From NCBI GenBank assembly GCA_000702085.1, contig JNKP01000001.1, positions 186,001 through 250,000 on the forward strand: a DNA stretch of 64,000 nt, in the 5' to 3' direction. The notes under the pieces are model-generated. The model saw only the letters and a list, made by a program, of their open reading frames with translations. It had not been told where the DNA came from and searched no databases. A program made the position numbers and the translations under genes. The stretch comes from Lachnospiraceae bacterium P6A3. GTDB lineage: Bacteria > Bacillota > Clostridia > Lachnospirales > Lachnospiraceae. Shown one piece after another: positions 14,256 through 56,212 of the stretch; positions within the stretch are counted from its first letter, which is position 1; every line of letters begins with the position of its first letter.

Positions 14256-14288
14256 ATGCACCCCCATAAATGATGATTAATAACTACA

Positions 14289-14477: not shown

Positions 14478-14481
14478 TCTA

Positions 14482-15924: not shown

Positions 15925-16289
15925 GTTGCCTTCTTCATCCTCTGAACTTGCGACAATATATCTGCTGTTTCTGATTGCACTTCTTCCTGCATCTCTTTCG
16001 GCAGATATGACGTAAACTTTTCAAGCCCTATCATGTATGACCGCCACAAAGAAACGTAACCCTTGAAAATGGGATTTTCTCTTGTTCCACTCTGTCCGCC
16101 TCCGTTGTCATATTCACATACAACAGAGGCATCCTTTATCTCTTCACGGGTCTGATCAAGTTTGACCTTCATCCATGCAAGATTATCAATCACAGGAGCT
16201 AAAACCTCCCTTTGTTTCTGTGGCACTTCTGCACGCTCTAATATGTCATATAGCCTTTTATATTCGCTTTTGATACTTTTATCGTCCAT
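15921..16289 (-). CDS. terminase small subunit, P27-like
   Basis: 122 residues, mostly helical. The C-terminal half (ENPIFKGYVSLWRSYMIGLEKF) is the signature stretch of P27-family small terminases, which recognise the cos site and regulate the large subunit. AAGGGTGG lies about 9 bases before ATG 16289. It overlaps terL by ATGA and lies next to an HNH gene, the usual trio of cos-type Gram-positive phages. A satellite-specific small subunit is the classic means by which SaPI-type islands redirect helper packaging. Confidence 0.8.
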   Translation of the reverse strand: MDDKSIKSEYKRLYDILERAEVPQKQREVLAPVIDNLAWMKVKLDQTREEIKDASVVCEYDNGGGQSGTRENPIFKGYVSLWRSYMIGLEKFTSYLPKEMQEEVQSETADILSQVQRMKKAT

Positions 16290-16389
16290 AATAAGAAACC
16301 ACCCTTATTGACCGAATATGAGCCCTATAGATTATCGCTGACCGGCTTGGGAGCAATTAGGGCATCCCCAGGGATACTCCCCCACCCTA
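16290..16389. other. non-coding gap between terS and HNH, candidate cos region
   Basis: About 100 bases without a gene inside the packaging unit. It has an inverted pair GCCCTATA/ATTAGGGC (about 16322-16365), the small palindrome TCCCCAGGGA and C-rich tracts. In HNH-type cos phages the cohesive-end site lies in just this gap. This is positional inference only; the nick sites cannot be read from the sequence. Confidence 0.35.
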
Positions 16390-16728
16390 TCACCACTTAC
16401 CATCGAGCCGATTCATTTTCAATTTTGCTTTGGGGTCATCAATGATCTTGAACCCGACCTTGTTTCCCTTGAGAGCATTACAGTATCGATGAGCAGGGAA
16501 AACATTATTGGGATCATCCGCACACTCCTCCGGGCTTGAATATCCAAACTCTTTCCATTTGCTCACGGGACACCGTTCATCTATTACAAAACTCCATTTT
16601 TCTTGCGGAGTTGATGGGATTGAATAATCAATAGGCTTTCCGCATATGCTACACGGTAGATTCATCGCCCTGAACCGTGCCTGAAATTTTCTCCGCTTAC
16701 CGCTTTTCCATCTCGGGTTTGTTGCCAT
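16390..16728 (-). CDS. HNH endonuclease
   Basis: About 112 residues. CSICGKPID at the N-terminal side and the later pattern VIDERCPVSKW ... NVFPAHRYCNALKGNK match the HNH fold of phage packaging nucleases, with a CxxC zinc site and histidine and asparagine in the second half. The motif is a divergent HNH: an aspartate-glutamate pair replaces the usual first histidine region. GAGGGGG lies 3-4 bases before ATG 16728. HNH proteins next to terminases are needed for cos cleavage in HK97-like phages. It lies directly upstream of terS across the candidate cos gap. Confidence 0.8.
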   Translation of the reverse strand: MATNPRWKSGKRRKFQARFRAMNLPCSICGKPIDYSIPSTPQEKWSFVIDERCPVSKWKEFGYSSPEECADDPNNVFPAHRYCNALKGNKVGFKIIDDPKAKLKMNRLDGKW

Positions 16729-16736
16729 AGTCCCCC

Positions 16737-16955
16737 TCAAAATATTCTCATCGTTTGATTCCTGCTTGCTTGGGGTACGGTCACTTCGACAAGTTCTTTA
16801 ATGTCATTGATGTTGTACCATGTGGGGCTGATATCAGAAGATTCAGAATCTACAACAAGAAAGCCGTTATAAATCATGCAATCCTTTTCCGTTATCGGCT
16901 CTCGGTCATAAAATACAATTGTCTTAACATGAAAGAGCTTTCCTATGTTCATCAT
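16737..16955 (-). CDS. small hypothetical element protein
   Basis: 72 residues (MMNIGKLFHVKTIVFYDREP...), predominantly beta-strand pattern, no cysteine cluster or membrane segment. Its ATG shares a base with the stop of the preceding gene (TAATG), so it is translationally coupled, and it ends 8 bases before the HNH start. I do not recognise it. Its place in a tight operon argues that it is real. Confidence 0.6.
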   Translation of the reverse strand: MMNIGKLFHVKTIVFYDREPITEKDCMIYNGFLVVDSESSDISPTWYNINDIKELVEVTVPQASRNQTMRIF

Positions 16956-17530
16956 TACTCTTCAACCGGGAATGTCTGATCAATGTGCAGGTTATACAAA
17001 GCAATAAGTCCATCACTTACCTTGTCATTGTGAGGAACAAGTGCCTTATTAAGTGAATGTGCCAGATCATCAATCATCTGCATCTGTACTTCTGCAGGAT
17101 GCTTTCCGAAAACATAAATGCCGTGCTCTTCAGCAATCGAGCTGATTGCCTTATATGCCTGCACATTGTCCCCGTATCTATCAACCAAATCTTTCAGCTC
17201 ATCTTCCTTCACATCGTTTCTGATCTTCAGAAGTCCGATTGAATTAACCGCTTCTGCAGAAGGTGCATCCGTGACCTTTGTCTTGAGTTTGCTCATGCAA
17301 TCAGAGAGAGTGTTTCTTGCTCTTTCACGAAGCTTTGCACAATCAACCTCATATGCATTCTTGCACTCTTCTGTATAGATTCTTCCCTCTGCAGGAATGG
17401 GAGAACCGGGGCGGAGTGTTTTCATGTACTGTTCACGGGATGCACGGCAATGAAACTTATATGATTCATTGAAATCATGCATGATATCCTTGAGTTCCTT
17501 ATTGATTCTTGCAATATCGTACTTATCCAT
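16955..17530 (-). CDS. hypothetical element protein, helical
   Basis: About 191 residues, strongly charged and mostly helical, with a likely coiled region at about 1-110. No catalytic motif is recognisable. The start is ATG 17530, with AAAGGAG 9 bases upstream; a longer frame to 17608 would overlap the next gene and has no ribosome site. It is coupled to the small downstream gene by TAATG. A role in DNA processing or in helper interference is possible from position only. Confidence 0.65.
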   Translation of the reverse strand: MDKYDIARINKELKDIMHDFNESYKFHCRASREQYMKTLRPGSPIPAEGRIYTEECKNAYEVDCAKLRERARNTLSDCMSKLKTKVTDAPSAEAVNSIGLLKIRNDVKEDELKDLVDRYGDNVQAYKAISSIAEEHGIYVFGKHPAEVQMQMIDDLAHSLNKALVPHNDKVSDGLIALYNLHIDQTFPVEE

Positions 17531-17565
17531 TCTTTTAATCTCCTTTTGAAATGTTTGTTGATCTG

Positions 17566-17766
17566 TTATGAATTTTCTTTTGATTCGGATTCCGCTCGCT
17601 TGTTCCAATACTGAACACGATTCTGCTTTATCTTTTCTTTGTGCTCCTGATAGTATTTGCGATGGTATTCATTCCGTTTGGCTTTCTGCTCGGGGGTCAT
17701 ATTCTTTCGCCATTCTCTTAAATATTCCGCCCTTGCCTGCCTTGCCTCTTCCGTCAAACGCTCCAT
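17566..17766 (-). CDS. small basic element protein
   Basis: 66 residues (MERLTEEARQARAEYLREWR...), almost entirely charged helix rich in R, K and E, with a YHRKYYQEHKEKIKQNRVQYW stretch split by basic residues. Such proteins are common in clostridial phages and resemble the short arginine-rich helices next to HNH genes. TTGAGGT lies just before ATG 17766. A nucleic-acid-binding role is plausible, not shown. Confidence 0.6.
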   Translation of the reverse strand: MERLTEEARQARAEYLREWRKNMTPEQKAKRNEYHRKYYQEHKEKIKQNRVQYWNKRAESESKENS

Positions 17767-17939
17767 GATTAACCTCAATTAATTAAGCAAGTTTCTTGTC
17801 ACTTTTAATCATTTGAATATCTATAAATATCTTATATATGCGGTATCCTTCAATCAATCATGTGAGGGTAACGGGTTTATTTTTTTCTCGGTTACGCTTA
17901 CCGACCTCCCTTCTTTTTGCCGTTATAAAAAAGATTCAT

Positions 17940-18048
17940 GGAGAATATGGAGAGGATGGAGAGCCTTTTTCTAACTCCTATTTATTTTTGTTATGTTAAA
18001 AATATTTTCTAACTCAAAAATACCTCTCCATTCTCTCCATTCTCTCCG
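17940..18048. other. purine/pyrimidine repeat pair around AT-rich core, candidate replication origin
   Basis: 17940-17963 holds three GGAGAA/GGAGAG-type units spaced by ATs. 18023-18048 holds the inverted set CTCTCCATTCTCTCCATTCT. Between them lies a very AT-rich stretch with the direct repeat TTTTCTAACTC at 17967 and 18006. The interval 17767-18059 has no gene and lies just downstream of the primase unit, where P4-like elements often keep their origin. Confidence 0.4.
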
Positions 18049-18059
18049 TAAAAATAGAA

Positions 18060-18281
18060 TTAAAACTGTAATAGCCATTCATTGTGCATCTTCATCTGAA
18101 GTCTGCTGATATAGCTTTGAATATCAGGCTTGTAATATTCGCATATATCGTGGCATCCCTTCTTCTCAAGTGTGTTAAACAGCATAAGAACTCTTGAAGC
18201 ATTCTCTTCCGTTGCATCTGATTTCAGGAGCATAAGCATCACAGAAGTGATCTTAACTATTTCCATTTTGTTATCATCCAT
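18060..18281 (-). CDS. small hypothetical protein coupled to primase
   Basis: About 73 residues (MDDNKMEIVKITSVMLML...), helical, with no recognised domain. ATG 18281 lies inside the last codons of the primase gene (overlap of 8 bases), a normal arrangement in this element; the frame is open upstream to 18308. It may be a regulator or accessory factor of replication by position. Confidence 0.55.
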   Translation of the reverse strand: MDDNKMEIVKITSVMLMLLKSDATEENASRVLMLFNTLEKKGCHDICEYYKPDIQSYISRLQMKMHNEWLLQF

Positions 18282-20553
18282 AGTTTGCCTCCATCTTGCT
18301 TTGTTCAATTGGTCTTAATCCTCGATATACAGCAATCCTTCTTCTGTCCCCTACATCACCGATTCCGCTCACGATTCCGAGCCCTTCCATCCTTGCCGGG
18401 AGATTTCTTCTCTCAACCTCTCGGATTGAATCATCCATGACCGCCCATCCGTGATATATGTTTTCGAATTCAGATTTTGAAATCGTGTCATGATAATTGA
18501 GAGTGATTTCATAATTGTCCGTAACAAAGCGGTAAACATTATCCATCTGCCTTCTATACTCTTCTTTTGAAAATTCACTTGATGCACTTTGTGTGAAGTT
18601 ATAACCATTTTCAATAAGTCGATGCAGACCATCTATCGCCCATGAAACGATATCGGGAATCTCTCTCTTGAGCTTTTCATCCATCATGGCATCCTTGTTC
18701 TCGGCTGTTATGTGATGCTCAAAGGGAATGATCAAAAGTCTGTCGAATAAATGTCCGCCTTTATCATCTGTGAAGCAGGGCAAGCCATTGCAGGCAATCA
18801 GGAATCCGCCTCTGTATTCATACGATATAGGCTGAACACCCTTCGGCTCGATCTTGACGGCATCGCCCCCGGTCAAAGCTTTAAAGGTTGATGAATCTGT
18901 GATGTTTGAATTGCTCTCGTCACCGCAAGCAATCAAGCGACAGTTTGGAAGATTTCCGAGAATGAATCTGTTTTGTGGTACAAGCTCCAACAGTTTTATT
19001 GATGCGGTTCTTTCCATTCCGAGAATTGAAACAATCAATCTGATGAGAACACTCTTCCCGGAATCACCGAGCTTACTCCATAGAACAAGGCATTTCTTTA
19101 TTCGTGACATTGGAATATTGCTCAATATGAAGCCCATGTATTCCTGAATGATAAGAATCTGATCTTGATCAACAGAACCATCCGGCTTTGTGCAGGCATC
19201 CGTGATATACTTTTCAAACACCTTCGGGCACTTGTCACAAGGCTTGTAATCAAATGGGTATTGGAACGTGCTCACGATATCAGGAGAATGAGGTTCAAGA
19301 TGCTTTGTTGTGATGTTGTATAGACCATTCCTGAAATTGATATATTCCGAATCGGAATTCAGATCACTTATCTTTGCAACATTGTCATAAGTCGAAAATA
19401 TAATTGCCCTGGTATTATTCAGCATCGTGTCAGATATCTTATAAGCAGGGACATATCTGCTGATCATTGCTTTCATCTCACTTTTGTTTTGCGGAGTATA
19501 AACACCGTTTCTGTAAAGCAAGAATGATTCCTTATCATCAAGCGGATTTCGCACAATCTTATATGATTCATTTTCGCTTATTACATCTGCAAGGATTCCC
19601 GAATTGATGCTTATAGATTTCTTATCACCGTTTACCCATGGGGCATAATTCACGGGAGCATTCTCAATCATGGACTTAAGCTTTTCTAATGTTCCATCTT
19701 CTTTTTGGAGATAGTCCGTCACATCGCCATGATCTAATTGAGAGGGATTCACAATTGCTATGCTGAATGCATACCGCTTCAAATCCTTCATGATGATTTC
19801 TGCATTCTTAAGCCCTGCAGAATCATTGTCCCGAAGTATGACAACGTTAAGCCCTTTAAAATAAGGTGCAAACGATTCTCTCCAATCCGATGCACCGCCT
19901 GCCGTTGTCACACACATGAAATAAGAATCTCTTAAGCCTCTTAAGGTTTCTACATCCTTTTCACCTTCAACGATAAAAACCTTTTGAGCCTTGCACCCAT
20001 ACTTCAGAAGATCAGGTAATCGATATAAAACCTTTTCAACCTCGGATGCCATGCAAGCCGTTGCGGTTTCCGTTGCTTCATTTATCACATAGTAACGAAT
20101 AAGCTTTCCGGGAATCCTTCCGCCCTCGAATCTTACTTTGCTGTATAGATAATTCCTTTGCTCGTCATAATAGCTATACACCGCAACAACGTGCACACCT
20201 TCACCATATCCCTTGCACTTGTTGCCGTTCTCATCCTCCCATTCGTATTCGTGGGAGTAATACCAAACCTTTTTATCGAGAGCGGTCAATTTCTTGTTTT
20301 CTTTTCTATCAGCAAATAAGTCCGACATTTTTACACCGAGAGCAGATGCAATCTCTTCCGTTTCACATCCTGCATGATCTCGAATAAGAATCTTGCCCTC
20401 GGATGATAAGCTGACCGTTAAGGATGCTTGCTTGTCATTGTGGCACGGGCACTTTGCCTGATAGGATTCAATGATTCCATCCTTGCAAGGCAATCTCTTT
20501 ACCCTTCCCAAACGATTCAAAATATCATGAAATAATTCTGTATTATCGCCCAC
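18274..20553 (-). CDS. phage/plasmid primase-helicase (P4/D5 family)
   Basis: About 759 residues. In order: a CHC2-like zinc finger (CPCHNDKQASLTV) near residues 30-45; a Toprim domain (VFIVEGEKDVETL and VVILRDNDSAG) at about 185-290; a D5_N-like region; and a superfamily 3 helicase with Walker A GDSGKS near 490, Walker B LIACGDESN and the sensor/arginine segment FIACNG-like LIACNGLPCF ... FDRLLIIPF. It would prime and unwind the element's DNA. The start is GTG 20553: AAGGAGG lies 7 bases upstream, while TTG 20559 is too close. This gene makes the element a probable autonomous replicator after excision. Confidence 0.9.
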   Translation of the reverse strand: MGDNTELFHDILNRLGRVKRLPCKDGIIESYQAKCPCHNDKQASLTVSLSSEGKILIRDHAGCETEEIASALGVKMSDLFADRKENKKLTALDKKVWYYSHEYEWEDENGNKCKGYGEGVHVVAVYSYYDEQRNYLYSKVRFEGGRIPGKLIRYYVINEATETATACMASEVEKVLYRLPDLLKYGCKAQKVFIVEGEKDVETLRGLRDSYFMCVTTAGGASDWRESFAPYFKGLNVVILRDNDSAGLKNAEIIMKDLKRYAFSIAIVNPSQLDHGDVTDYLQKEDGTLEKLKSMIENAPVNYAPWVNGDKKSISINSGILADVISENESYKIVRNPLDDKESFLLYRNGVYTPQNKSEMKAMISRYVPAYKISDTMLNNTRAIIFSTYDNVAKISDLNSDSEYINFRNGLYNITTKHLEPHSPDIVSTFQYPFDYKPCDKCPKVFEKYITDACTKPDGSVDQDQILIIQEYMGFILSNIPMSRIKKCLVLWSKLGDSGKSVLIRLIVSILGMERTASIKLLELVPQNRFILGNLPNCRLIACGDESNSNITDSSTFKALTGGDAVKIEPKGVQPISYEYRGGFLIACNGLPCFTDDKGGHLFDRLLIIPFEHHITAENKDAMMDEKLKREIPDIVSWAIDGLHRLIENGYNFTQSASSEFSKEEYRRQMDNVYRFVTDNYEITLNYHDTISKSEFENIYHGWAVMDDSIREVERRNLPARMEGLGIVSGIGDVGDRRRIAVYRGLRPIEQSKMEANYG

Positions 20554-20607
20554 AAGCAAACCTCCTTCCCGATTCCGTTATCTTTAACGGATGCAGAATC
20601 ACTTTCT

Positions 20608-20865
20608 TCATGATTTCTTGTCCTCCATTGCCTTGGTTAGTTCTGCAGGATTAATCTTCAAGAAATCAAATATCAATGTGATCTGCTCAAGCCTGAAGAG
20701 CCCCGGGTCTTTCCATGCCTTATAGAAATTTGCAGAGCTCATCTGACTTGCTCTGACCGTTTCTGATCTTGGAAGATTCAGCCTTGCTTCTGCCCCTGCA
20801 ATCAAAGAGCGGATGGTCTGTGCATAAAGATCATTGGGCTTTTTTGATAAATATGTTCTCGGCAT
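20608..20865 (-). CDS. small HTH-like regulator of the element
   Basis: About 85 residues. A helical pattern (SLIAGAEARLNLPRSETVRASQMSSANFYKAWKDPG, broken here) fits a lambda-repressor-like or XRE-type helix-turn-helix, with the recognition helix around SSANFYKAW. TAGGAGGG lies 6 bases before ATG 20865. It lies between the Cro-like gene and the primase, where early phage operons keep a replication regulator. Function inferred. Confidence 0.6.
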   Translation of the reverse strand: MPRTYLSKKPNDLYAQTIRSLIAGAEARLNLPRSETVRASQMSSANFYKAWKDPGLFRLEQITLIFDFLKINPAELTKAMEDKKS

Positions 20866-20875
20866 ATCAGCCCTC

Positions 20876-21082
20876 CTATTCTTCAGAATCAAAATCAATA
20901 AGTTCCTGCACCGGGATGTTTAAAACCTTTGATATTTTCTTTGCCATCTCGAAGGTGGTATTTGCACCCTGCTTTATGTTTGAAATCCTTGTTATTGAAA
21001 TCCCTGATTCTTCAGCAAGCTTTTTATTGTTAATGCCTGCATCAATCATTCCGCAAACAAGTTTTTTCTTGTTGATTTTCAT
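20876..21082 (-). CDS. Cro/XRE-family repressor
   Basis: 68 residues with a clear XRE helix-turn-helix: GMIDAGINNKKLAEESGISITRIS then IKQGANTTFEMAKKISKVLNIP, and the usual tail VQELIDF. ATG 21082 has AGAAAGGG 8 bases upstream. It is the first gene of the leftward replication unit and is divergent to the rightward repressor at 21263, a typical lysogeny switch. It probably represses the rightward promoter. Confidence 0.8.
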   Translation of the reverse strand: MKINKKKLVCGMIDAGINNKKLAEESGISITRISNIKQGANTTFEMAKKISKVLNIPVQELIDFDSEE

Positions 21083-21262
21083 TTGCTTCACCCTTTCTAA
21101 AATTTGTTATTGAAATTTCTTACCATCGATGATATTTTTATAACGTAGCGGACTTCATGCTCGCTTTGCATGACAATAATATAAAATGCCGTGCGAATAA
21201 CGTGCAATAGTCCGAGCGTGACCAAAAAATCTTTTTTCAAGTTACTTTTGGAGGATTAGCCA
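21083..21262. promoter_or_regulatory. divergent control region of the element
   Basis: 180 bases between the two divergent regulators. It has a dyad TCATGC/GCATGA at 21155-21173 and two direct GTGC(G)AATA boxes at 21191 and 21202. CGGACT at 21149-21154 is inverted as AGTCCG at 21208-21213. Promoter boxes cannot be assigned with confidence; operators for both regulators are likely here. Confidence 0.5.
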
Positions 21263-21859
21263 ATGGCAAAGAATGATGAAGCATATGAAGAATTAGCCAT
21301 GCGAAAGAAAACACTCGGTGAAAGATTAACCGAATTGATGAATTACAGAGGTTATGAACGCACATCTATTCGCAAAGCCTACAAAGAAAAATTCGGTTTA
21401 GATATTCAGAGGCAGACGTTTGCAAAATATCAAAAAGGTGAAGTTCATCTCCCCAAAGACATAGCAGAAAACATTTCACAGATACTTGATTATGATTCCG
21501 GGTATCTTCTTGGGAAAGATAGGTGCTTCTGCAAGACATACGCTGAATATCAACAATTGATGCACATCGTAACAAAAGAAGGGCTTATATTCAGCAACTT
21601 ATTAAGAGAGCTCGGTTTCGGATGGACTTTTGACCCTGATGATGATTGTTATTCCATCTGTCCCGGTGTAGATATCAAGCACGCTAAAGATTTCACATAT
21701 TCCGAGCTTGAAGCATTTTGCAATCAGATCAAGGAATATGCCTTGAAACTACTCAATGAGAAGGGAGGCGGTCAAGATGAAAGCATGAAGGTTTCCGTGC
21801 CTGATATCACGGAATCAGCTCCAAAGAAACGTAAAACAAGCAAATCAACAAGAAAGTGA
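21263..21859 (+). CDS. CI-like repressor with N-terminal HTH
   Basis: 198 residues. The N-terminal part (TLGERLTELMNYRGYE, KAYKEKFGLDIQRQTFAKYQKGEVHLPKDIAENISQIL in pieces) is a lambda-repressor-like DNA-binding domain. The rest is not a LexA/S24 peptidase: no serine-lysine pair context is seen, so it is probably not RecA-cleaved and may be derepressed by a helper protein, as Stl is in SaPIs (inference). The C terminus is a lysine-rich tail. TTGGAGGA lies upstream of ATG 21263. It is the first gene of the rightward unit that ends in the integrase. Confidence 0.7.
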   Translation: MAKNDEAYEELAMRKKTLGERLTELMNYRGYERTSIRKAYKEKFGLDIQRQTFAKYQKGEVHLPKDIAENISQILDYDSGYLLGKDRCFCKTYAEYQQLMHIVTKEGLIFSNLLRELGFGWTFDPDDDCYSICPGVDIKHAKDFTYSELEAFCNQIKEYALKLLNEKGGGQDESMKVSVPDITESAPKKRKTSKSTRK

Positions 21860-21867
21860 GGGTAATT

Positions 21868-22356
21868 ATGGCATTACAAGTAATCATGATGATTGATGAG
21901 GGATATCCCAAAAGTGAGGTTTATGCTCATGCAAGCAAGAATGATTCCGGCATCGTTATAAAGGCAAAGTCCCTTGATGAAGCAAAAGCCCTTTTGCCTC
22001 AAGGTGAAGAGCTCGAAAAGAAAGCCCGTCAGGAATACAGCCCGGAGAACGACAACGAAGAATTACCTCTTGAGCACACATATAAAGCACCCATGAGCTC
22101 CGAGCAGGCTCAAAGGGAAATCGAGAGATATATGCAGGACAAAGAAGGTGCACGATTCGTTAAAGCCCTTAATACCGCTTGGGACTTCTCCGAGAAAAAG
22201 GACAAAACGGGATTCTTTAACATATGGCAATACAGATATCTTGCATTAGTGGCAAGTGCGACAGACCCCCATGAGGCAATTATCAAATCTTATACATATG
22301 GATATCACAAAGGCTATAAGAAGGCAAAGAACGAGCTGAAACAAAGGAAGGAGTGA
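21868..22356 (+). CDS. hypothetical element protein between repressor and integrase
   Basis: About 162 residues, charged and helical, beginning MALQVIMMIDEGYPKSEVYA. No known domain is recognisable. GAGGG lies 6 bases upstream of ATG 21868 and spans the repressor stop; the integrase starts 4 bases after its stop, so the three rightward genes form one operon. An excisionase would normally be smaller and basic, which makes that role unlikely. Confidence 0.65.
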   Translation: MALQVIMMIDEGYPKSEVYAHASKNDSGIVIKAKSLDEAKALLPQGEELEKKARQEYSPENDNEELPLEHTYKAPMSSEQAQREIERYMQDKEGARFVKALNTAWDFSEKKDKTGFFNIWQYRYLALVASATDPHEAIIKSYTYGYHKGYKKAKNELKQRKE

Positions 22357-22360
22357 TTAT

Positions 22361-23419
22361 ATGGCTAAAGCTGTACAGCTCAAATCAGGAAAATGGAGGA
22401 TTCAAGTCTACATAGGCAAGGACAATCAAGGGAACACGATTCGGAAATCCGTTACCGCAAGCACCAAACGTGAGGCGGAAGAACTTGCCAAAAGGATGGA
22501 GCTCCAACAGAGAAAGAATCAGAACATAGACCGCAAGGATATGACCGTTCGTGATGCGGTTCAAAGATTCCTTGAAATCAAACGTAATGAAGAGAAAATA
22601 GGCAAGATATCGCCTGCCACAATGAGAGGATATCAGACCATATATGACAATGCTCTTAATGGCATCGGAGATTATGGGGTTTTGAAGCTCAATGACAAGA
22701 TAATTAACGGATGGATAACTGATCTGCAATATGTTGACCATTATTCCGCAAAGTCCGTTAAAAATGCATGGTCACTTGTCAGGAGCTCATTGATGGAAGT
22801 TCTTCCCCGGTCTGTGGTAATTGATTGGAGAATCGATCTCCCATCCCTCGGAAAAAAGAAGGTTAATGTTCCATCGGAGGATGATATTGATGCCGTTATC
22901 GATTATCTCAAGGAAAAAGACCCTGATCTCTTCCGGGCGGTTCTGTTATCTGCTTTTGGAACTTTGAGAAGATCAGAGATTTCAGCTTTGACCGCTGATG
23001 ATGTTTCCGGGAACGTGATTCACATCAACAAAGCCATTGTTAAGAGCTCAAACGGAGAATGGATTCTCAAGGGAACTAAAACTGATATGAGCACCCGTGA
23101 TGTTGTACTCCCTCAATTTGTCATTGATGAATTACCAAAAGAGGGACACATTGTCGATATTGACCCTGCTCGAATTACTGACCGCTTCATTAAGGCTCTT
23201 AAAAGGCTCGACAGGAGGACTTTTCGCTTTCATGACTTAAGACATTACTCTGCATCCATAATGCACGCTCTCGGGGCTTCTAACGAGATTATAATGAGCC
23301 GTGGCGGATGGAGTAACGATCAGACCCTTAATGCACATTACAGAGGAACTATTTCGGAATATGAGAAGGATTTCACAGAAAAATTAAATGATCACTTTAC
23401 AGAAAGATTCGGGGCATAA
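22361..23419 (+). CDS. int: tyrosine-recombinase integrase
   Basis: 352 residues. The N-terminal arm-binding AP2-like segment (SGKWRIQVYIGKDNQGN) is followed by a SAM-like core-binding domain (RDAVQRFLEIKRNE ... SPATMRGYQTIYDN). The catalytic domain follows, with R in GTLRRSEI (about 208), K in LKGTKTDMSTRD, HxxR in FHDLRHYS (about 289), W in RGGWSND and nucleophile Y in LNAHYRG (about 328). All catalytic residues are present. It lies 78 bases from the att core at the intact tRNA end, as expected for this class. Confidence 0.95.
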   Translation: MAKAVQLKSGKWRIQVYIGKDNQGNTIRKSVTASTKREAEELAKRMELQQRKNQNIDRKDMTVRDAVQRFLEIKRNEEKIGKISPATMRGYQTIYDNALNGIGDYGVLKLNDKIINGWITDLQYVDHYSAKSVKNAWSLVRSSLMEVLPRSVVIDWRIDLPSLGKKKVNVPSEDDIDAVIDYLKEKDPDLFRAVLLSAFGTLRRSEISALTADDVSGNVIHINKAIVKSSNGEWILKGTKTDMSTRDVVLPQFVIDELPKEGHIVDIDPARITDRFIKALKRLDRRTFRFHDLRHYSASIMHALGASNEIIMSRGGWSNDQTLNAHYRGTISEYEKDFTEKLNDHFTERFGA

Positions 23420-23492: not shown

Positions 23493-23496
23493 ATCG

Positions 23497-23519
23497 TGCG
23501 GAAGGCGGGACTTGAACCC
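23497..23519. repeat. attR core inside tRNA-Leu
   Basis: The 23 bases are identical to 13238-13260 and form the last 23 nt of the tRNA gene including the discriminator A. Integration therefore restored a complete tRNA. Confidence 0.9.
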
Positions 23520-23580
23520 GCACGACCGTGAAGCCACAAGAACCTTAATCTTGCTTGTCTACCAATTCCAACACTTCCGC
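23497..23580 (-). tRNA. tRNA-Leu (probable anticodon AAG)
   Basis: 84 nt from G 23580 to A 23497. The acceptor stem GCGGAAG pairs with CTTCCGC, discriminator A, and CCA is not encoded. The D-arm holds TTGGTAGAC, the anticodon stem is CAAGA/TCTTG with 7-nt loop TTAAGGT (anticodon AAG after the invariant T33), the long variable arm marks class II, and the T-arm has GGTTCAAGTCC. Loop register gives AAG; a one-base shift would read TAA, also leucine, so Leu is secure. Confidence 0.93.
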
Positions 23581-29833: not shown

Positions 29834-32113
29834 TCAAGTTATATTTGGAACAATAAGATCCGCGGGTATACTCTTTCTGACCGCTTCCTCCAGTTCAAGC
29901 GGATCCACGGGTTTTGAGAGATATCCGTCGAAACCCGCGTTCAGATACATCTCCATACTTCCCGAAACCGCATTTGCGGTAAGTGCCATTACCGGAGTCT
30001 CCTTATTGGGGTTACCATTATCCTCCCTGATCATATGAAGTGTTTCGATGCCGTCCGGCGCAGGCATCATATGATCCATGAAAATCACTTCGTACTTATT
30101 TATCTTGGTAAGTTCAAATGCTTCTTTTCCGCCGAATGCTTTGTCTATACATACTTTGGTATTTTTCAAAAGCGATACGAAGACTTCCAGATTCATCTCA
30201 TTATCATCAACTATGAGAACATGCGCATTCGGTGCAGTAAACGATGCTTCGTATTTTTTTCTCTTGGTGTTCTCTGACTGCCTGCTTAACTTAACGGCAC
30301 CGACCAGGGTTGAATCTCCTATCTTCTGAGGTATCTTTACCGTAAATACGGAACCGTCTCCGTAATGACTGGACACCTTAATGGTGCCGCCCATACCTTC
30401 GCAAAGTCTTTTAGTAATGGCAAGTCCCAGGCCTGTTCCTTCTATGTGACGGTTCTTTCTCAAATCGGCTCTGGCAAAGCTGTCAAAGATATGCTCGATA
30501 TCCTCGGCCCTGATACCGATTCCCGTATCGCTGACCGACAGTTCAAGATCATAACCCTCATCGGTATATTCACCGGTAACCGAAATCCTGATATATCCTT
30601 CGTTTGTGTATTTCACCGCATTTGTGATCAGATTTACGAGTATCTGTTCTATCTTATCCGAATCACCTATAAGGCCCGAAGGCATGCCGGGATCCACATC
30701 AAGTGCAATTCGCAGGTTCTTCTCGGACGCTCTCTTTTCCAGCATTTTGCCGGAGGTGCGTGCAAGCTCCGCAATGGAGTATTCCTTTTCATCAAGTTCG
30801 AAATTTCCCGCTTCAATCTTGGAGAAATCAAGAACATCGTTTACCAGATTCAGAAGAAGATGACCTGCTTTTTCAACATCCCTGGAATAGCCCAGAATAA
30901 CCAGATCATTCGATTCTCTCGAGATCATCTCGTTCATTCCGAGTATGGTGTTTATGGGCGTTCTGATCTCATGTGACATTGCGGAAAGGAAATCACTCTT
31001 TGCATTGGAAGCTTCGAGCGCTCGTTTTTCGGCAGCCGCAAGTCTTTCGTTTTTTTCTTCGATGGATGCGATGTATTCGTTGTCTTTTGTCACATCATAA
31101 AACTCGATCAGATATCCGTAGAGAGCATCTCCGAAAATTCCGAAGGCTCTTTTTCTGCTGAGGAATTTTACTTCGCTTTTCAGGACTCTTCCCGACAGCT
31201 TGATGGTCTCGCGGTAAACTACTTTCCTGTTGTCTTTGCTTAAGGAATACATTTTGTCAAAGCTTTCAAGAAGATCCGTAATCTCGGGAATATCATCGGA
31301 GAGTTTCCTGTCTATCTCCTGCAATTTCAGCTTTTCAAAATACTGGCGTGCAAGGGCATTCGAACCCAGATAATTCTTATTCCTGTCAAAAACGATATAG
31401 GCATACTCTTCCATCTTTTCCCATATGCTCATAACGTTATACGACATATCATACATACTGACCCTTTTGTATATCGCAAGGATGGTAATCTCGGTCAGCA
31501 GATACGCAATGGCATTGAATTCGAACGGAATGCCGAGAATTCTGTCGATTATATAGATGGTGATATTGGAAAAAAGAAATACGGAATAAAGCAGAGTGGT
31601 TTTGTATGAAACGATATTTCTTCGTCTGATGGCAAAGCCGCATACGTGGGCAACCGCCAGAATATACAGTCCGAGCATCACATAATAAACCGCATGGAGC
31701 GGACCGTATTCTTTAATCATGACCGTATACCCGCCGGCATCGACTATATCAACACTTCTGTAATAAACAGGGGATCTTCCGACGGTTAATGTAGAGCAGA
31801 AAACAAATGTGGATACAAATACAAGAAACAGTTTGATCCTTTGAGGGAGATGAATCGATGCAAGATCGGCACCGATGCAGAAAACAAAATAGGGCAGATA
31901 ACATCCGCCCATATAGATCATTGAATTACCTACTATAACCGCATCAATACTCTTCGAAACGGCAATACACAAGTAGCCTCCGTTAGCAACTACGACGGCA
32001 CTCATTAAAAGAACTGTGTAGATGTCGGGTCTGATGCCAGATTCGATCAGCAGTACAATGTTCAGCACTGCAAGTATTAAAGCAATCAGATAAATGCAGG
32101 TGACAATATTCAA
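29834..32113 (-). CDS. 7TM hybrid histidine kinase/response regulator
   Basis: About 759 residues. An N-terminal seven-helix membrane sensor (about 1-220) is followed by a PAS-like domain (about 235-345) and a short coiled linker. The HisKA H-box is MSHEIRTP (H381). The ATPase has the N-box NLITNAVKYT, G1 DTGIGI and G2 GTGLGLAI. The receiver domain shows VLIVDDNEMN, phospho-acceptor IFMDHMMP (about D690), ALTANAV and LSKPVD. There is no output domain and no Hpt, so phosphate must pass to another protein; a REC-Hpt protein lies at 63455. The start is probably TTG 32113, two bases after the previous stop. It is the last gene of the VYGPP/c-di-GMP cluster. Confidence 0.9.
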   Translation of the reverse strand: MNIVTCIYLIALILAVLNIVLLIESGIRPDIYTVLLMSAVVVANGGYLCIAVSKSIDAVIVGNSMIYMGGCYLPYFVFCIGADLASIHLPQRIKLFLVFVSTFVFCSTLTVGRSPVYYRSVDIVDAGGYTVMIKEYGPLHAVYYVMLGLYILAVAHVCGFAIRRRNIVSYKTTLLYSVFLFSNITIYIIDRILGIPFEFNAIAYLLTEITILAIYKRVSMYDMSYNVMSIWEKMEEYAYIVFDRNKNYLGSNALARQYFEKLKLQEIDRKLSDDIPEITDLLESFDKMYSLSKDNRKVVYRETIKLSGRVLKSEVKFLSRKRAFGIFGDALYGYLIEFYDVTKDNEYIASIEEKNERLAAAEKRALEASNAKSDFLSAMSHEIRTPINTILGMNEMISRESNDLVILGYSRDVEKAGHLLLNLVNDVLDFSKIEAGNFELDEKEYSIAELARTSGKMLEKRASEKNLRIALDVDPGMPSGLIGDSDKIEQILVNLITNAVKYTNEGYIRISVTGEYTDEGYDLELSVSDTGIGIRAEDIEHIFDSFARADLRKNRHIEGTGLGLAITKRLCEGMGGTIKVSSHYGDGSVFTVKIPQKIGDSTLVGAVKLSRQSENTKRKKYEASFTAPNAHVLIVDDNEMNLEVFVSLLKNTKVCIDKAFGGKEAFELTKINKYEVIFMDHMMPAPDGIETLHMIREDNGNPNKETPVMALTANAVSGSMEMYLNAGFDGYLSKPVDPLELEEAVRKSIPADLIVPNIT

Positions 32114-32115
32114 AA

Positions 32116-34098
32116 TTATTCAACCTTCATGAAATCCAGATAATCTCTTTCACACATGGGTTTTGCATAATAGAATCCCTGGATGAAATCACAGCCCTGT
32201 GCCTCAAACCAGTCGGATATCTCTTTAGATTCTACACCTTCTACGACGATTCTTGCACCCATACTCTTGATAAGTTTTATTGCCTCTTCAAGAATACGTC
32301 TCTTTTCGGGATCCGCAGCCTCATCCGTGAGAGATTTATCAAGCTTGATAACTTTGTAAGGAAAGGACATGACTCTGTGGAGGTTCGAATACCCCGAGCC
32401 GTAGTCATCAAGTGAAAATCTGACGCCCTCCGCGGAAATCTCGTTCATGGTTTCCAGGACTCTTTCGTAGGCTCCGTCAGTAGCGGTCTCGGTTATCTCG
32501 AAATTGATCCAGCTTGGATCTATATGGTATTCAGCCATATATTTCTTGATCTTGCCCGCCATATCGGCCTGCATACACTGAATGATGGAAAGGTTGACTT
32601 CGATGTAATCGACTCCCAGTTCTTCGGGAGAATGCTGTGATAAGAACCTGCATACATCCTTTATGACGAAATCTCCGATGTGCACGATCCTGCCGGTCTT
32701 CTCTGCGGCAGGGATAAATATCGAAGGCGAAATAGATCCGAATTCTTCGGAGTTAAGTCTTATAAGAGCTTCCGCGCATTTATACGTCTTATCCTTAAGC
32801 GAATAAATGGGCTGATAATACATCTCAAATCTGTTATGTCTGATGGCATCTTCAATAATGGAATCGATAGAATTGAGGATTACGAATTCCCTGTCAAAAG
32901 AAATCTCCGAATACTGAACGGGCTTCCAGGGCTCGATAAGATTCTGTATGCGCTCGGAGAACTTCATCAGTTCTTCTTTGTCGGAAATATCATCGGGAAC
33001 AAGAACCGAGCAGATGCACATATCAAGCTGAACATCATAACCCGCTCCGGAATAACCTTCGCAATATCTGTCTACAAGCTTATCGACCTGTTTTCTGATC
33101 AGATTACGATCGAATCTGCCCTGGATGATATTGGCATATAGACCGCCTCTGAGATAATAGAAATCGGATGATGACAGAAGGCCTCTGTATCTTTCTTTTA
33201 CAAGAATGTCACCGACGGATCTTAATATCTTTCTGTAAACACGGATGTCGGTAAGACTTCTGATCTCGGAATCATTGGAGATCTTACAGAAGATTACGAT
33301 TCCTCTTCTGCCGCTTAAGATAAGATTCTCGATATCGTTTTCAAAGGGAACGAAGGATGACAGTCCGGTCTCAAGATCGATGGACTCATCGGGTCTGAAA
33401 ACAAAGAACGCAAGTATAAGAACCGAAAGTGCCGCGCCGAACATGCCGGTCATCAGTTCCGGATAAACATCCTGGATCAGTATGGCAAGTACATTGACGG
33501 GATATACAAGAAGCATCGCAAGGAACTTCTCGACACTGAGTCTTTTCCTGATGATGAAAAGCTGCACCAGCGAAAATACCATGAAATAAAAACCGAAGTA
33601 ATCAAAGAGCGACATAAGATCACCGCGGACATACATGATGCCCTCGGAAGTAAGCGCATAATTAAAGATCCGCTGATTGAAGAAGTTGGAATAAACCAGG
33701 ATCAAATATCCCATTACGGGGAAGAAATAGAAGAAACCGATCCTGAAGTCAGACTTAATGCGGCTCCAGGTACCGCTCATGATACCGTAGAGACGTATGA
33801 GCAAGGGCATCTGCAAAGCCCTTAAGAAGCAGAATATATAACCCATCACAAATCTGAAAACAACCGAAGAACCAATGGCAGTGTTTTCATTGTAGGGAAT
33901 CGCTCTGAGAATATCAAAAATACAGCTTAAAATCATAAGGATTGCAAGCTGTATAAATGCCCTGTTCAATCCTCCGCGATACATCTTGCGAAGAAGCAGC
34001 GATACAAGTATCGCAAGAAGAACGAAGATGGAACAAATGTCAAAATAATTTACTCTGTCAATGATCTGCAACTGTAGGATTCCCCCCATGTGATCCAC
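32116..34098 (-). CDS. 7TM sensor, degenerate GGDEF, EAL phosphodiesterase
   Basis: About 660 residues. Seven or eight hydrophobic segments at about 20-235 are followed by a GGDEF-fold domain whose signature has decayed to LRGGLYANI, so it cannot be an active cyclase and may bind GTP or be structural. The EAL domain (about 405-655) looks active: AEALIRL, IEVNLSIIQ, FEITETATD, SLDDYGSGYSN, IKLDKSL, VEGVESKE and QGFYYAKP. GTG 34098, ATG 34089 or TTG 34074 could start it; GGGGGGA favours the last. It lies 50 bases after the radical SAM gene and 2 before the hybrid kinase. Confidence 0.88.
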   Translation of the reverse strand: MDHMGGILQLQIIDRVNYFDICSIFVLLAILVSLLLRKMYRGGLNRAFIQLAILMILSCIFDILRAIPYNENTAIGSSVVFRFVMGYIFCFLRALQMPLLIRLYGIMSGTWSRIKSDFRIGFFYFFPVMGYLILVYSNFFNQRIFNYALTSEGIMYVRGDLMSLFDYFGFYFMVFSLVQLFIIRKRLSVEKFLAMLLVYPVNVLAILIQDVYPELMTGMFGAALSVLILAFFVFRPDESIDLETGLSSFVPFENDIENLILSGRRGIVIFCKISNDSEIRSLTDIRVYRKILRSVGDILVKERYRGLLSSSDFYYLRGGLYANIIQGRFDRNLIRKQVDKLVDRYCEGYSGAGYDVQLDMCICSVLVPDDISDKEELMKFSERIQNLIEPWKPVQYSEISFDREFVILNSIDSIIEDAIRHNRFEMYYQPIYSLKDKTYKCAEALIRLNSEEFGSISPSIFIPAAEKTGRIVHIGDFVIKDVCRFLSQHSPEELGVDYIEVNLSIIQCMQADMAGKIKKYMAEYHIDPSWINFEITETATDGAYERVLETMNEISAEGVRFSLDDYGSGYSNLHRVMSFPYKVIKLDKSLTDEAADPEKRRILEEAIKLIKSMGARIVVEGVESKEISDWFEAQGCDFIQGFYYAKPMCERDYLDFMKVE

Positions 34099-34148
34099 TG
34101 TGCATATTATACAATTTCAGAGTAACTTAAACAACTTAAAAAAACTCC

Positions 34149-35273
34149 TCAAAAAAGAACATCTTTAAGGCAAATTAAGGGTTTATTTGCATCATAGTCC
34201 CAGCTGTGATGTGCGCCTCCCGCACACCATTTCTCAAATTCACATTCTTTACAGTCTTTATTCAATTCCGAAAGATGTTTTCTGAAAATTTGAAATCTGT
34301 TGTTCCAGGACTCGGTGAACGAATCTGTATTTACATTTCCGTAGATGACTTCATCTCTGGGCATAATGTCCAGGCATGCGGTAATTGATCCGTCAGCCCT
34401 TATGGAAGCCGTAAAAACTCCCGCATTGCAGAGGAACATCTTATCTCTGACATTTCCTTCAAGATCAAGTCCGAGGAAATGTGAGCAGCCGTATTCTACG
34501 GGAAAACCCGCTCTTCTTTTCTCAAGTATAAAAGAAAACAGTCTTCTCTGATCATCGGGAGTAAGGAGCATGTCGGGGTATTCCAGAGCTCGTCCTATGG
34601 GCTCAATGCCAATGACTCTCCAGGAATCCACATCAATACCGTCCACCACTTTAAAGAGCTCATCCAGCTCGGAGATGTTTTTATGATTTATTACCGTGGT
34701 TATCTGGATCGCATGGAAGAAATTCTCGTCTATGAGATTCTGAATTCCTCTCATTGCAAGCCTGTATCCGCCTTTAAGTCCTCTTTGTCTGTCATGGGTT
34801 TCTTCAAGGCCGTCTATGCTTACGGAGATGGTAGCCATTCCGCATTCTTTTAAACGATGTGCGGCTTCCTTGGTGATCAGAGTTGCATTTGAGGTCATGC
34901 CCCAGGTAAAGCCCTTTTCATGGATGTAAGAAACGATATCAAAAAAGTCCGGACGGAGCATGGGCTCTCCTCCGGTGATACATATCATGATGCGCTTTTT
35001 GTCAAAATTCTCGGAAACCTCATCTATGACTTCTTTGATCTTGTCAAAAGAAAGCCCCGTGGGAATTCCGGGCTCACATCTCGATCCGCAGTGGAAACAC
35101 TTTTCGTTACACGAGAGTGTGAGTTCAAAAAAAAGATGCCTGAGGTCAGGCCTTTCATAAAGCCTTTCCCTGACCTCAGACCTTTTATCAAGAATAGTCT
35201 TCTTAAGCTCCAGTACTTCGGGAGCTTCGGCGGAAAATTCTTTGAATTCATTAAGATTCATCGCATACCTCAT
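34149..35273 (-). CDS. radical SAM/SPASM enzyme, probable modifier of the VYGPP lipoprotein
   Basis: 374 residues. The radical SAM [4Fe-4S] motif is CNEKCFHC (C55, C59, C62), followed by the GGEPMLRPDF SAM-binding segment and SIDGLEETHD. The C-terminal SPASM domain holds CNAGVF, ACLDI, CKECEFEKWCAGG and a final CL. This is the architecture of peptide-modifying maturases such as those of sactipeptides, ranthipeptides and cyclophane-forming systems. The start shares one base with the lipoprotein stop (TAATG), so both are made together. I recall NCBI models for an rSAM/lipoprotein system in Bacteroidetes (TIGR04133/TIGR04134); whether this is that family cannot be tested here. Substrate assignment to the neighbour is inference. 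Confidence 0.85.
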   Translation of the reverse strand: MRYAMNLNEFKEFSAEAPEVLELKKTILDKRSEVRERLYERPDLRHLFFELTLSCNEKCFHCGSRCEPGIPTGLSFDKIKEVIDEVSENFDKKRIMICITGGEPMLRPDFFDIVSYIHEKGFTWGMTSNATLITKEAAHRLKECGMATISVSIDGLEETHDRQRGLKGGYRLAMRGIQNLIDENFFHAIQITTVINHKNISELDELFKVVDGIDVDSWRVIGIEPIGRALEYPDMLLTPDDQRRLFSFILEKRRAGFPVEYGCSHFLGLDLEGNVRDKMFLCNAGVFTASIRADGSITACLDIMPRDEVIYGNVNTDSFTESWNNRFQIFRKHLSELNKDCKECEFEKWCAGGAHHSWDYDANKPLICLKDVLF

Positions 35274-35665
35274 TAAGGCTCGGGCGGTCCGTAAACAGGA
35301 GCAATCGGCTGGGACAGATTGTCAGTCTCATCCGGAGCTTCGGATGTTTCTATCGAATCGTCGTATGAGAAATCTTCGGGTGGGCCGTAAACCTCCTCTA
35401 TAGGATCTTCTATATCGGGTGGAGGTCCGTAGACAGGCTCCGTCGGCACATCGATATTATTATCAAAGTATTCGGGAGGGCCATACACCGTTTCAATCGG
35501 ACCGTCTATGTCTTCCTCGTTTACAACGGGAGGTCCGTATACATCAGGCTGAGGATCATCGGGGGGACCGTAAACGTCACTGAGCGGGCATCCGGTAAGA
35601 CCAACCAGTGCTCCCGCAGCAAGAACAGATGATGCAAATGTCAGTTTTTTCTTACTTTTTTTCAT
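35273..35665 (-). CDS. lipoprotein with six VYGPP motifs, putative RiPP-like substrate
   Basis: 130 residues. A lipoprotein signal peptide ends with the lipobox LTGC (C26). The rest is low-complexity, acidic and proline-rich, with VYGPP centred on Y32, Y43, Y61, Y79, Y93 and Y125, the first four residues after the lipid and the last two residues before the C terminus. Acidic runs separate the motifs. There is no folded domain. The next gene is a radical SAM/SPASM enzyme overlapping by one base, and this gene starts 3 bases after the GGDEF-EAL stop with AGAGGA in between. The likely reading is a surface-anchored peptide with repeated tyrosine-based modification sites. The pattern is seen; the modification is inferred. 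Confidence 0.85.
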   Translation of the reverse strand: MKKSKKKLTFASSVLAAGALVGLTGCPLSDVYGPPDDPQPDVYGPPVVNEEDIDGPIETVYGPPEYFDNNIDVPTEPVYGPPPDIEDPIEEVYGPPEDFSYDDSIETSEAPDETDNLSQPIAPVYGPPEP

Positions 35666-35668
35666 AAA

Positions 35669-37345
35669 TTATCCTCTTGAAGAATAATCGGGGTTACCCA
35701 GAACTTTCTCGAATTCATCTTTAGTAAGCGGCTTGTCAAAGAAATATCCCTGGCCGCGCAGACATCCGTATTTTTTGAGGATTTCAATCTGCTCCCTGGT
35801 CTCTACTCCTTCCGCTATGGTGTTCATCCCCAGGTCTTCCGCCATGGAAATGATATGCTTCATCATGATCATGTCGCGGTCACTGATGGATTCGCTGCTG
35901 ATAAAGCTTCGGTCTATTTTGATCTCGGAAAAAGGAATATCCTTGATCATACTCATGGACGAATATCCTACACCGAAGTCATCCACGGATACATCGAATC
36001 CGGCTTTTCTGAATTCTGCCACGCACTCCGCAAGTCGTATGAGATCTGCCTCCGTCGTAGTTTCGGTAAGCTCAATGACTATGAGTGAACGCGGGACCTT
36101 ATATTCATCCACAATATTGATAACTTCATGTACGAAGTTCGGATTTCCCAAATGTTTTCTGGAGAAGTTGGTCGAAACCCTGACAGGTGTGATTCCTTTG
36201 TCCATCCAGCTTGCAATATCTTTGCAAACGGTCTCAAGCATGTAGTAGTCAAGGGAACAGATTCTGTTACTCTTTTCGAGAATCTGTATAAAAGCATCGG
36301 GAGTCAGTATCTTCTTGCCCCTGTTCCATCTGCAGAGAGCCTCCGCACCGATAAGCATATTATTCTCAAGATTAACTTTAGGCTGATAATATGCTATGAA
36401 CTCGCCCTTTACGATCGCATCTTTAAACCTTGATTCGATCTTCCTGGTATTATTGACGATGCGTACCATCTTCTCATCGTAAAGCTGAACGTTTGCGTGA
36501 TTTGTATTCTTGGCAATCAGCATCGATGCCTGTGCATAATCGATACATTCGGAAAAACTCTTTTCCTTTCCGGTGCAATGATATACTCCGCAGTAAGCAC
36601 TCATTCTGATGGTTTCCCAGAATGCGGAGTCACCGGTCATATCGGTTCCCTTCAGTATCTTAAGCAGATGATCGGTGTGTTCATGTCTTGCGACCATTAC
36701 AAAGTTATCACCGCCCATTCTGCAAAGACACTCGGGCTGTTCGAGAATTTCGGAAAGCATATTTCCGAATTTTTTGATCATTTCATCAGCTTCTGATCTT
36801 CCGATCATTGAGTTGATGCCGGATACGTTGACCAGGTTGAAAAAAATTATGGAATATTCGGAAAGCCTTTCGAGTTTTTGGATCATCGATAGTGTTTTTC
36901 CGAGATAAAAGCTGTTAAAAAATCCAAGTTCACGTTCATGGAATGTGGCGTATTCGGTGAACTCTTTCATCCTGATACGGCTTTTTAAGATTGAGATGAT
37001 GAGAAGGAATTCTCCTACAAGCTTTCTTTCCTCCTCATTCCATGTATAACCCGCAACAGGGAATATGCATACTCTGACGACATTTCCGCTGGGTACGACA
37101 GAGCGGTTCATTACATAATCGTCTTCGTTAAAACTGTCGCCCTCATATCTGACGTTAACAATGGCCGGTTCGTCACGAAGTTCGGCAGACATATCCTTGT
37201 ATTCGAAAAAAACTATCCTGCCGATCTTAAGCTCACCGATTATTTCGGCCGAAGCAGCATTATCCCTGTCTGATTCATACAGAACGATGGCCGCTTCTTC
37301 ACAGAAAAGATCATGTAATTTAACTTTAATCTTATCAATATCCAT
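35669..37345 (-). CDS. GGDEF-EAL protein of the VYGPP cluster
   Basis: 558 residues, no membrane segment. The N-terminal 150 residues are an unrecognised sensory region of GAF-like pattern. The GGDEF domain carries RMGGDNFVM, with N for the key glutamate, so cyclase activity is doubtful. The EAL domain looks complete: GAEALCRW, STNFSRKHL, IELTETTTE, SVDDFGVGYSS, IKIDRSFI, AEGVETRE, QGYFFDKP. Thus it probably is a c-di-GMP phosphodiesterase with a modulatory GGDEF. AGGAAAG lies 10 bases before ATG 37345. It is the first gene of the cluster and ends 3 bases before the lipoprotein. Confidence 0.88.
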   Translation of the reverse strand: MDIDKIKVKLHDLFCEEAAIVLYESDRDNAASAEIIGELKIGRIVFFEYKDMSAELRDEPAIVNVRYEGDSFNEDDYVMNRSVVPSGNVVRVCIFPVAGYTWNEEERKLVGEFLLIISILKSRIRMKEFTEYATFHERELGFFNSFYLGKTLSMIQKLERLSEYSIIFFNLVNVSGINSMIGRSEADEMIKKFGNMLSEILEQPECLCRMGGDNFVMVARHEHTDHLLKILKGTDMTGDSAFWETIRMSAYCGVYHCTGKEKSFSECIDYAQASMLIAKNTNHANVQLYDEKMVRIVNNTRKIESRFKDAIVKGEFIAYYQPKVNLENNMLIGAEALCRWNRGKKILTPDAFIQILEKSNRICSLDYYMLETVCKDIASWMDKGITPVRVSTNFSRKHLGNPNFVHEVINIVDEYKVPRSLIVIELTETTTEADLIRLAECVAEFRKAGFDVSVDDFGVGYSSMSMIKDIPFSEIKIDRSFISSESISDRDMIMMKHIISMAEDLGMNTIAEGVETREQIEILKKYGCLRGQGYFFDKPLTKDEFEKVLGNPDYSSRG

Positions 37346-56018: not shown

Positions 56019-56212
56019 TTTTTCCTCCTCCGATTTTGGAAATAAATTTTTTTCAAACAACTACTAAAAAAAATATACTACATTATTTTATAGAATACAA
56101 AGGTTTTTTAATATTTTTTAAAAAAAATTTTCGGAGGTGATTCGCTGCAGCGTTTGATTTTACTGGCTTTGAAGAAAAAGGCACGCGTGTCATATTTTTG
56201 TTTTGATTTTTA

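Follow-up and report, generated by a model that had tools for sequence, protein, structure and literature searches.

On the minus strand of Lachnospiraceae bacterium P6A3, a small gene for a lipoprotein carrying six copies of the pentapeptide VYGPP runs directly into a gene for a radical SAM/SPASM enzyme. The pair lies in the window, by which we mean the whole 64,000-nucleotide stretch of DNA that was analyzed, and it raises two questions: is the repeated motif a substrate of the enzyme, and if so, what reaction takes place there? A first-pass annotation of this DNA proposed repeated, tyrosine-centred modification of a peptide anchored at the cell surface. Genomic evidence supports such modification of the motifs by this enzyme, with the chemistry itself being a prediction.

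The lipoprotein and the adjoining enzyme gene

The proposed substrate, as read from its ORF and translation, is a protein of 130 aa (35273..35665, minus strand) with a Lys-rich N-terminus, a hydrophobic stretch, the lipobox LTGC and a tail rich in Pro, Asp and Glu. The signal peptide and lipobox (35588..35665, minus strand) are predicted from the motif, by the lipobox rule, and from the class assigned by our script, with Cys26 as the predicted site of lipidation. The composition of the tail suggests that it is unfolded. VYGPP begins at residues 31 (35561..35575), 42 (35528..35542), 60 (35474..35488), 78 (35420..35434), 92 (35378..35392) and 124 (35282..35296), all on the minus strand. This confirms the six copies first reported; their even distribution does not strictly hold, the spacings being 11, 18, 18, 14 and 32 residues. 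Each copy is written in its own codon string, six different strings in all, and when the mature lipoprotein was shuffled 20,000 times, VYGPP appeared at most once per shuffle (in 53 shuffles). Together, the codon variety and the shuffles argue that the repeats are under protein-level constraint. Chance can be ruled out as their origin by the shuffles, the codon variety and the relatives' loci described below, and recent DNA duplication by the six different codon strings. Searches of Pfam and NCBIfam with the lipoprotein gave zero family matches.

The enzyme (374 aa; 34149..35273, minus strand) matches Radical_SAM (3.8e-23, 82.9 bits) and SPASM (5.4e-08, 33.5 bits) in Pfam, both above the gathering cut-offs, and also has matches in NCBIfam. 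Its CxxxCxxC cluster motif (C55, C59 and C62; 35088..35111, minus strand) is invariant in 15 of 15 aligned rows, and its SPASM region, delimited by Pfam and the alignment, extends from C282 to C368 (34170..34430, minus strand). With both the motif and the domain, the protein belongs to the SPASM radical SAM enzymes. Its AlphaFold model has a mean pLDDT of 93, and the nearest solved structures are those of SkfB, anSME, BlsE and SuiB, a set of neighbours that does not decide the chemistry. The stop codon of the lipoprotein overlaps a possible start codon of the enzyme in the sequence TAATG, just as the first-pass annotation stated. An alternative Met four codons in (35261), preceded by GAGG, lines up with the position where close relatives begin; the true start may be this one instead of that in TAATG. 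Stop/start overlaps were also seen, in a reading by eye, at the relatives' loci L034-L036, and because such junctions recur, translational coupling of the two genes is likely with either start.

Three bases upstream of the lipoprotein gene is a gene for a GGDEF-EAL protein (35669..37345, minus strand; Pfam), a probable operon mate of the pair. It is outside the conserved system, as other loci give such genes no fixed position. The pair is set among signalling genes (29834-37345) that also include those for a hybrid histidine kinase and an EAL protein. Elsewhere in the window, positions 13431-23419 look like an integrated phage-type element, with terminase-like and primase-like genes (named by reading) and, at its end, an integrase beside tRNA-Leu (23496-23580). 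At 55563-56060 there is a Lys/Ala-rich protein with AKKATVAKKA repeats, similar to histone H1-like bacterial proteins, and long ORFs are present on the opposite strand there too. An Rfam scan of the window at gathering scores returned no matches.

Distribution of the enzyme and of tagged proteins

A wide scan confirmed at least 567 relatives of the enzyme in other genomes, and we analyzed the best 80 of these, most of which come from genomes of the rumen and gut that are labelled as Clostridia or as related groups. The first-pass annotation had pointed to VYGPP proteins beside SPASM enzymes, and the expected association was found: an ORF containing XYGPP, where X is any residue, lies near the enzyme in 72 of these best 80. 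It is within 1.5 kb upstream on the same strand in 70 cases and only downstream in 2, and the richest upstream ORF at these loci holds 1-7 copies. For controls, we scored opposite-strand ORFs (1/80) and distant radical SAM loci (0/18).

No other gene accompanies the enzyme in this way. At the 80 loci there was no recurrent neighbour of at least 70 aa at a fixed position, and no untagged family was present in more than 14; the commonest, GGDEF/EAL proteins (14/80) and ABC-transporter ATPases (10/80), occur at scattered offsets and on both strands. Likewise, no family of small same-strand ORFs within 1.5 kb was found in more than 4 of the 80 loci, and no RRE-like small gene recurs. The search of these locus neighbourhoods gave no recurrent candidate for an RRE partner of the PlpY kind. 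A RiPP-type cluster with an RRE, transporter or protease was considered and rejected, as none of these genes recurs in a constant position across the 80 loci.

Eight of the 80 relatives have no XYGPP ORF nearby, and two of these (L071 and L098) are at contig ends. Seven of the eight genomes encode a carrier-like protein elsewhere, with 3-5 repeats in four of them (L050, L056, L059 and L061) and a single VYGPP, on a lipoprotein or a zinc ribbon, in the other three. The carrier found for L071 may be the missing neighbour of its enzyme on another contig. L103, besides its carrier-like protein elsewhere, has an adjacent lipoprotein with GYGPS. A search of the L098 genome for the VYGPP pattern gave no match.

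In the bacterial family to which the window belongs, the enzyme was detected at E <= 1e-40 in 19 of 397 genomes. When these 19 were read singly, an adjacent XYGPP protein was found in 12, an adjacent variant (YGPAP, YGPMP, YGPKP or YGCP) in 4, and tagged proteins only elsewhere in the genome in 1 (L014). In the last two (L020 and L021), the stretch read contained no such protein or nothing beyond a degenerate LYAPP, and the enzymes look damaged, that of L020 being apparently split between frames and that of L021 lacking CxxxCxxC. One diverged enzyme (L023) has on either side a small lipoprotein-like ORF that combines YYGCPNS with a basic tail (L023:1300-1536 and 3107-3295).

A DNA pattern for VYGPP gave 46 matches in 13 of the 19 enzyme-positive genomes, 44 of them in the carriers that we read, but only 4 in the 19 enzyme-negative genomes, spread over 3 of them. 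These four are unconvincing: none falls within a lipoprotein or repeat protein, and one (L156) is HVYGPPQ, present once in what is plausibly a membrane protein. VYGPP proteins occurring routinely without the enzyme, the observation named at the outset as counting against the proposal, were thus looked for in this family and not seen. In a tally by eye, clusters of at least two same-strand matches within 1 kb were present in 10 of the 19 enzyme-positive genomes and, among the matches listed, in one enzyme-negative genome (G295). That cluster was examined as a possible carrier and proved to be a DNA repeat encoding no such protein. The plain pattern matches 144 of the 397 family genomes, and a reversed control pattern is commoner by eye; we discarded the idea of VYGPP as a common enzyme-free motif, taking these 144 DNA matches as background.

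To describe the tag, we collected 105 carriers, consisting of 104 ORFs from 72 of the best 80 loci and the lipoprotein of the window. They contain 292 YGPP motifs, of which 217 are exactly VYGPP and 75 depart from it at X only (47 Leu, with the rest Ala, Ile, Met, Thr, Asp, Glu and Ser). Single changes from VYGPP number 0 at Tyr, 0 at Gly, 1 at the first Pro and 5 at the second; carriers were picked for having at least one YGPP, such that one copy in each is conditioned and the remaining 187 are not. GPP without a preceding Tyr does not occur in the 105 carriers. Degenerate copies do (EYGAP, 4; VYSAP, 2; EYEAP, 2).

A rough script sorted the 105 carriers into lipoproteins (44), dockerin-like proteins (25), others with a signal or TM segment (25) and proteins in which none of these was recognised (11). 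Pfam found domains in 7 of ten carriers searched: dockerin type I in three, and Lgt, Big_2, DUF805 and a zinc ribbon in one each. The carriers are otherwise unrelated, with only the tag and the enzyme in common, which argues that the tag is the substrate. XYGPP looks like a portable substrate tag that is used in trans as well. In the window's own genome, ~230 kb away, a second tagged lipoprotein of 283 aa (L030:765-1616, in the C1:453313 region, outside the window) has VYGPPEMYG soon after its lipobox; the domain after the tag has no Pfam match, and an orthologue exists in a genome of the same genus (L157). In G120, whose enzyme has no carrier within 1.5 kb, VYGPP occurs three times in a DUF805 membrane protein and once in a zinc ribbon. 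Cultured strains with carriers include [Eubacterium] cellulosolvens LD2006 and Lachnospiraceae bacterium AC2028. Anchoring at the cell surface, as first proposed, would apply to the lipoproteins, which are only one kind of carrier. Some carriers, among them the zinc ribbons and that of L067, have no evident export signal, and surface display is therefore not universal.

Several individual loci are worth recording. At L084:2503-3552, two genes upstream of the enzyme, the prolipoprotein diacylglyceryl transferase Lgt has a VYGPP tail. L095 and L109 each have six consecutive XYGPP ORFs, mostly dockerin-like, ~4 kb upstream of the enzyme. At L159:1400-1558 (G007), ~5 kb from an enzyme, an open frame of 53 codons, which has NMNVEVYGPPEWFG close to its end, resembles a short stand-alone substrate.

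Kinship to known radical SAM systems

The best NCBIfam match of the enzyme is TIGR04133 (rSAM_w_lipo), at 266.7 bits versus a cut-off of 425, and so it is not a member; three true members score 451.4-617.5 bits. TIGR04133 matches all 15 rows of the enzyme alignment, with a best single E of 5.7e-94. In a tree of 43 proteins, the window enzyme falls in a clade of 29 rows (support 97/91) that is sister to the three TIGR04133 enzymes (99/96). The next branch, leading to TIGR04103 and TIGR03913 enzymes, is weak (82/52), and several outgroups are long. The partner lipoprotein family, TIGR04134 (lipo_with_rSAM; cut-off 39.8 bits), does not match the window lipoprotein and has no match in the window's own genome at E <= 0.001, while three true members score 207.1, 138.8 and 43.7 bits.

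In these three TIGR04134 examples, all neighbours of TIGR04133 enzymes, the lipidated end bears EYGSP, EYGTP or CYGMP. The window lipoprotein has the same layout, a lipobox followed by YGxP in a gene adjoining that of the enzyme, and to go by the three examples these features may be what defines TIGR04134. The systems of Bacteroidota and Treponema thus resemble ours in having sister enzymes, a lipoprotein beside the enzyme and YGxP at or after the lipobox Cys. They differ in that each example has one motif, compared to up to seven here, followed by a larger lipoprotein domain. The suggested tie to the NCBI rSAM/lipoprotein system accordingly stands as kinship, in both profile score and tree, and fails as membership. 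The suggestion that the VYGPP form is undescribed fares similarly: a single-motif form exists in TIGR04134 (YGSP, YGTP and YGMP), and we found no paper on the repeat form. Nor did our literature search return a paper on the function of TIGR04133/TIGR04134.

A second comparison is with the splicease PlpX. We take TIGR04103 to be the family of PlpX and IPR026482 to be the same family. According to excerpts of PMC11002830, PlpX (IPR026482) cuts tyramine out of Xaa-Tyr-Gly and rejoins the chain, in a system with an RRE protein and precursors of the Nif11 or nitrile-hydratase type. Excerpts of PMC10533398 add that natural sites include MYG and LYG, that ketoamide formation does not require the leader, that tags with PIRPGYGLPI were accepted in two FtsZ constructs whereas most tested constructs were not, and that 27 other characterised and 939 predicted splicease systems exist. 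Our system is similar in its SPASM radical SAM enzyme, in having Tyr-Gly fixed with X variable, and in its core, compared with PIRPGYGLPI and with the ALYGLPPELF that ends the Nif11 precursor adjoining a Nostoc TIGR04103 enzyme (853.1 bits). It differs in having anchored many-copy proteins as carriers, with no RRE partner or Nif11-type leader seen. With respect to leaders of the Nif11 or nitrile-hydratase type, the window lipoprotein has no Pfam or NCBIfam match, and the other carriers were judged by sequence.

The window enzyme is 29% identical to the Nostoc enzyme and scores 134 bits against TIGR04103 (cut-off 725), and hence is not a member. Heme b synthase (153.7), mycofactocin maturase (143.9) and TIGR04053 (135.1) all score higher, and in the best 25 of 83 NCBIfam families it is below every curated cut-off. 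PlpX-type enzymes above the cut-off were found in 0 of 398 genomes of the phylum. One weak TIGR04103 relative in the phylum (L211, 221 bits) lies beside a leader-type precursor (1094-1480) with the core TTAYGIARPGG. Some copies in TIGR03913-type precursors have LYG, PYG or MY near the N-terminus, which is no more than suggestive.

G63 and E272 are common to the window clade, TIGR04133 and four TIGR04103/TIGR03913-type enzymes, and are not found in the MftC, PqqE, PeaB and TIGR04053 examples. S64, T193 and R276 are common to the same three groups. One caveat here is that these residues recur in other enzymes, making the evidence thin: G63 in an Agathobacter enzyme, E272 in another radical SAM protein of the window's own genome, S64 in MftC, T193 in TIGR04053 and R276 in both PeaB and TIGR04053. 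On sequence criteria, the enzyme and lipoprotein are outside the curated families tested, resembling a splicease or the rSAM/lipoprotein system and being members of neither.

The predicted reaction at the tag

We envisage a two-gene system for post-translational modification, made up of a radical SAM/SPASM enzyme and a tagged carrier. The enzyme almost certainly acts on the XYGPP tag. It would recognise X-Y-G-P-P, with X mostly Val, next Leu and rarely Ala, Ile, Met, Thr or others, and would act at every copy, presumably while the carrier is still in the cytosol, ahead of its export and anchoring. It would apparently need no separate RRE or leader peptide, and the tag, being portable, would serve in trans on lipoproteins, dockerin proteins and others. 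As for the reaction, we put the chances as evenly balanced that it is a splicease-like tyramine excision, leaving ketoamide β-amino acids at each XYG. This is our best guess because an X-Y-G-x-P core, with free X and nearly fixed Tyr-Gly, is present in three related enzyme groups; a variable X with fixed Tyr-Gly is also the published splicease rule, as the excerpted sources give it, and counts for tyramine excision. Several points count against it: the low TIGR04103 scores, the weak 82/52 branch, the thin residue evidence, the RRE and Nif11 leader not seen, the degenerate copies in carriers, and the nearly fixed prolines, which plain XYG recognition does not require.

The main rival to tyramine excision is a cross-link within the tag, either a cyclophane joining Tyr to X or the first Pro, or a mycofactocin-like Val-Tyr bond, with only hydrogens being lost; we regard it as unlikely. 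Cross-linking peptide maturases (triceptide/cyclophane) are SPASM enzymes that work on short aromatic motifs, and WgkB, DynA and HxsB, presumably cross-linking enzymes to go by their names, are among the best 25 of 83 NCBIfam matches. Their scores (114.6, 80.2 and 68.2 bits), however, are far under their own cut-offs (650, 450 and 370) and below the score against TIGR04103. A cross-link would suit the prolines, which are nearly as conserved as Tyr-Gly, and the mostly aliphatic X, yet Ala, Thr, Ser, Asp and Glu at X would make odd partners, and Tyr followed by a fixed Gly is what characterises spliceases. The substrate Tyr of MftC is C-terminal and without Gly. Mycofactocin maturase, which joins Val and Tyr according to excerpts of PMC8326336, does resemble our enzyme as a SPASM enzyme working on Tyr beside Val, and its family, TIGR03962, outscores TIGR04103 (143.9 versus 134 bits), albeit below its own cut-off of 265, so that the window enzyme is not a member. 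MftC differs in having a separate chaperone, MftB, and a free redox cofactor as its product, and the MftC example lacks the G63 and E272 that TIGR04103-type enzymes share with ours.

A chemistry not yet known, in the form of some other single-residue reaction on the tag (backbone or side-chain cleavage, hydroxylation, epimerisation or another change to Tyr), is rather improbable. The extended YGPP preference, which departs from the published splicease rule, and the scores below every cut-off in the best 25 families speak for it; nothing specific speaks against it, and kinship and the XYG rule favour tyramine excision. Very unlikely indeed is a purely functional link, with VYGPP serving to bind, for example, a polysaccharide or another protein, and the enzyme having a different target. 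Proline-rich tyrosine motifs can serve as ligand motifs, and 1-7 copies per carrier would suit avidity, but besides surface proteins the tag is borne by an Lgt and by zinc ribbons that show no evident signal for export, the loci have no conserved third gene, and the carrier-poor L020 and L021 are those with an enzyme apparently frame-split or devoid of CxxxCxxC.

If tyramine excision is correct, the window lipoprotein would expose as many as six electrophilic ketoamides on the cell surface. On flexible anchored tails, these could capture amines, trap nucleophiles or inhibit proteases, and dockerins could bring them onto cellulosomes. More broadly, and at somewhat short of an even chance, these enzymes may be undescribed leader-independent spliceases that edit a tag of five residues in many unrelated proteins across Clostridia of the gut and rumen, including ketoamide-studded lipoproteins and dockerin proteins. 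Our literature search found no paper describing the enzyme/tagged-protein system, although the clade may be among the 939 predicted spliceases surveyed in 2022; the excerpts of PMC8939145 and PMC10352776 held nothing on it, and among the texts searched IPR026482 was met only in PMC11002830.

A splicease for which a few residues suffice, without a leader or RRE, would offer a compact way to place reactive ketoamides in proteins, and the tag provides a testable substrate rule for TIGR04133-like enzymes, on which no paper was found. If the tag is modified at all, it marks a portable modification, mostly in gut and rumen Clostridia genomes, placed on lipoproteins of the cell surface and on dockerin proteins, which could be built into cellulosomes. 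If the enzymes are leader-independent spliceases, they would provide a general means of backbone editing of the bacterial surface, as opposed to a route to one released product.
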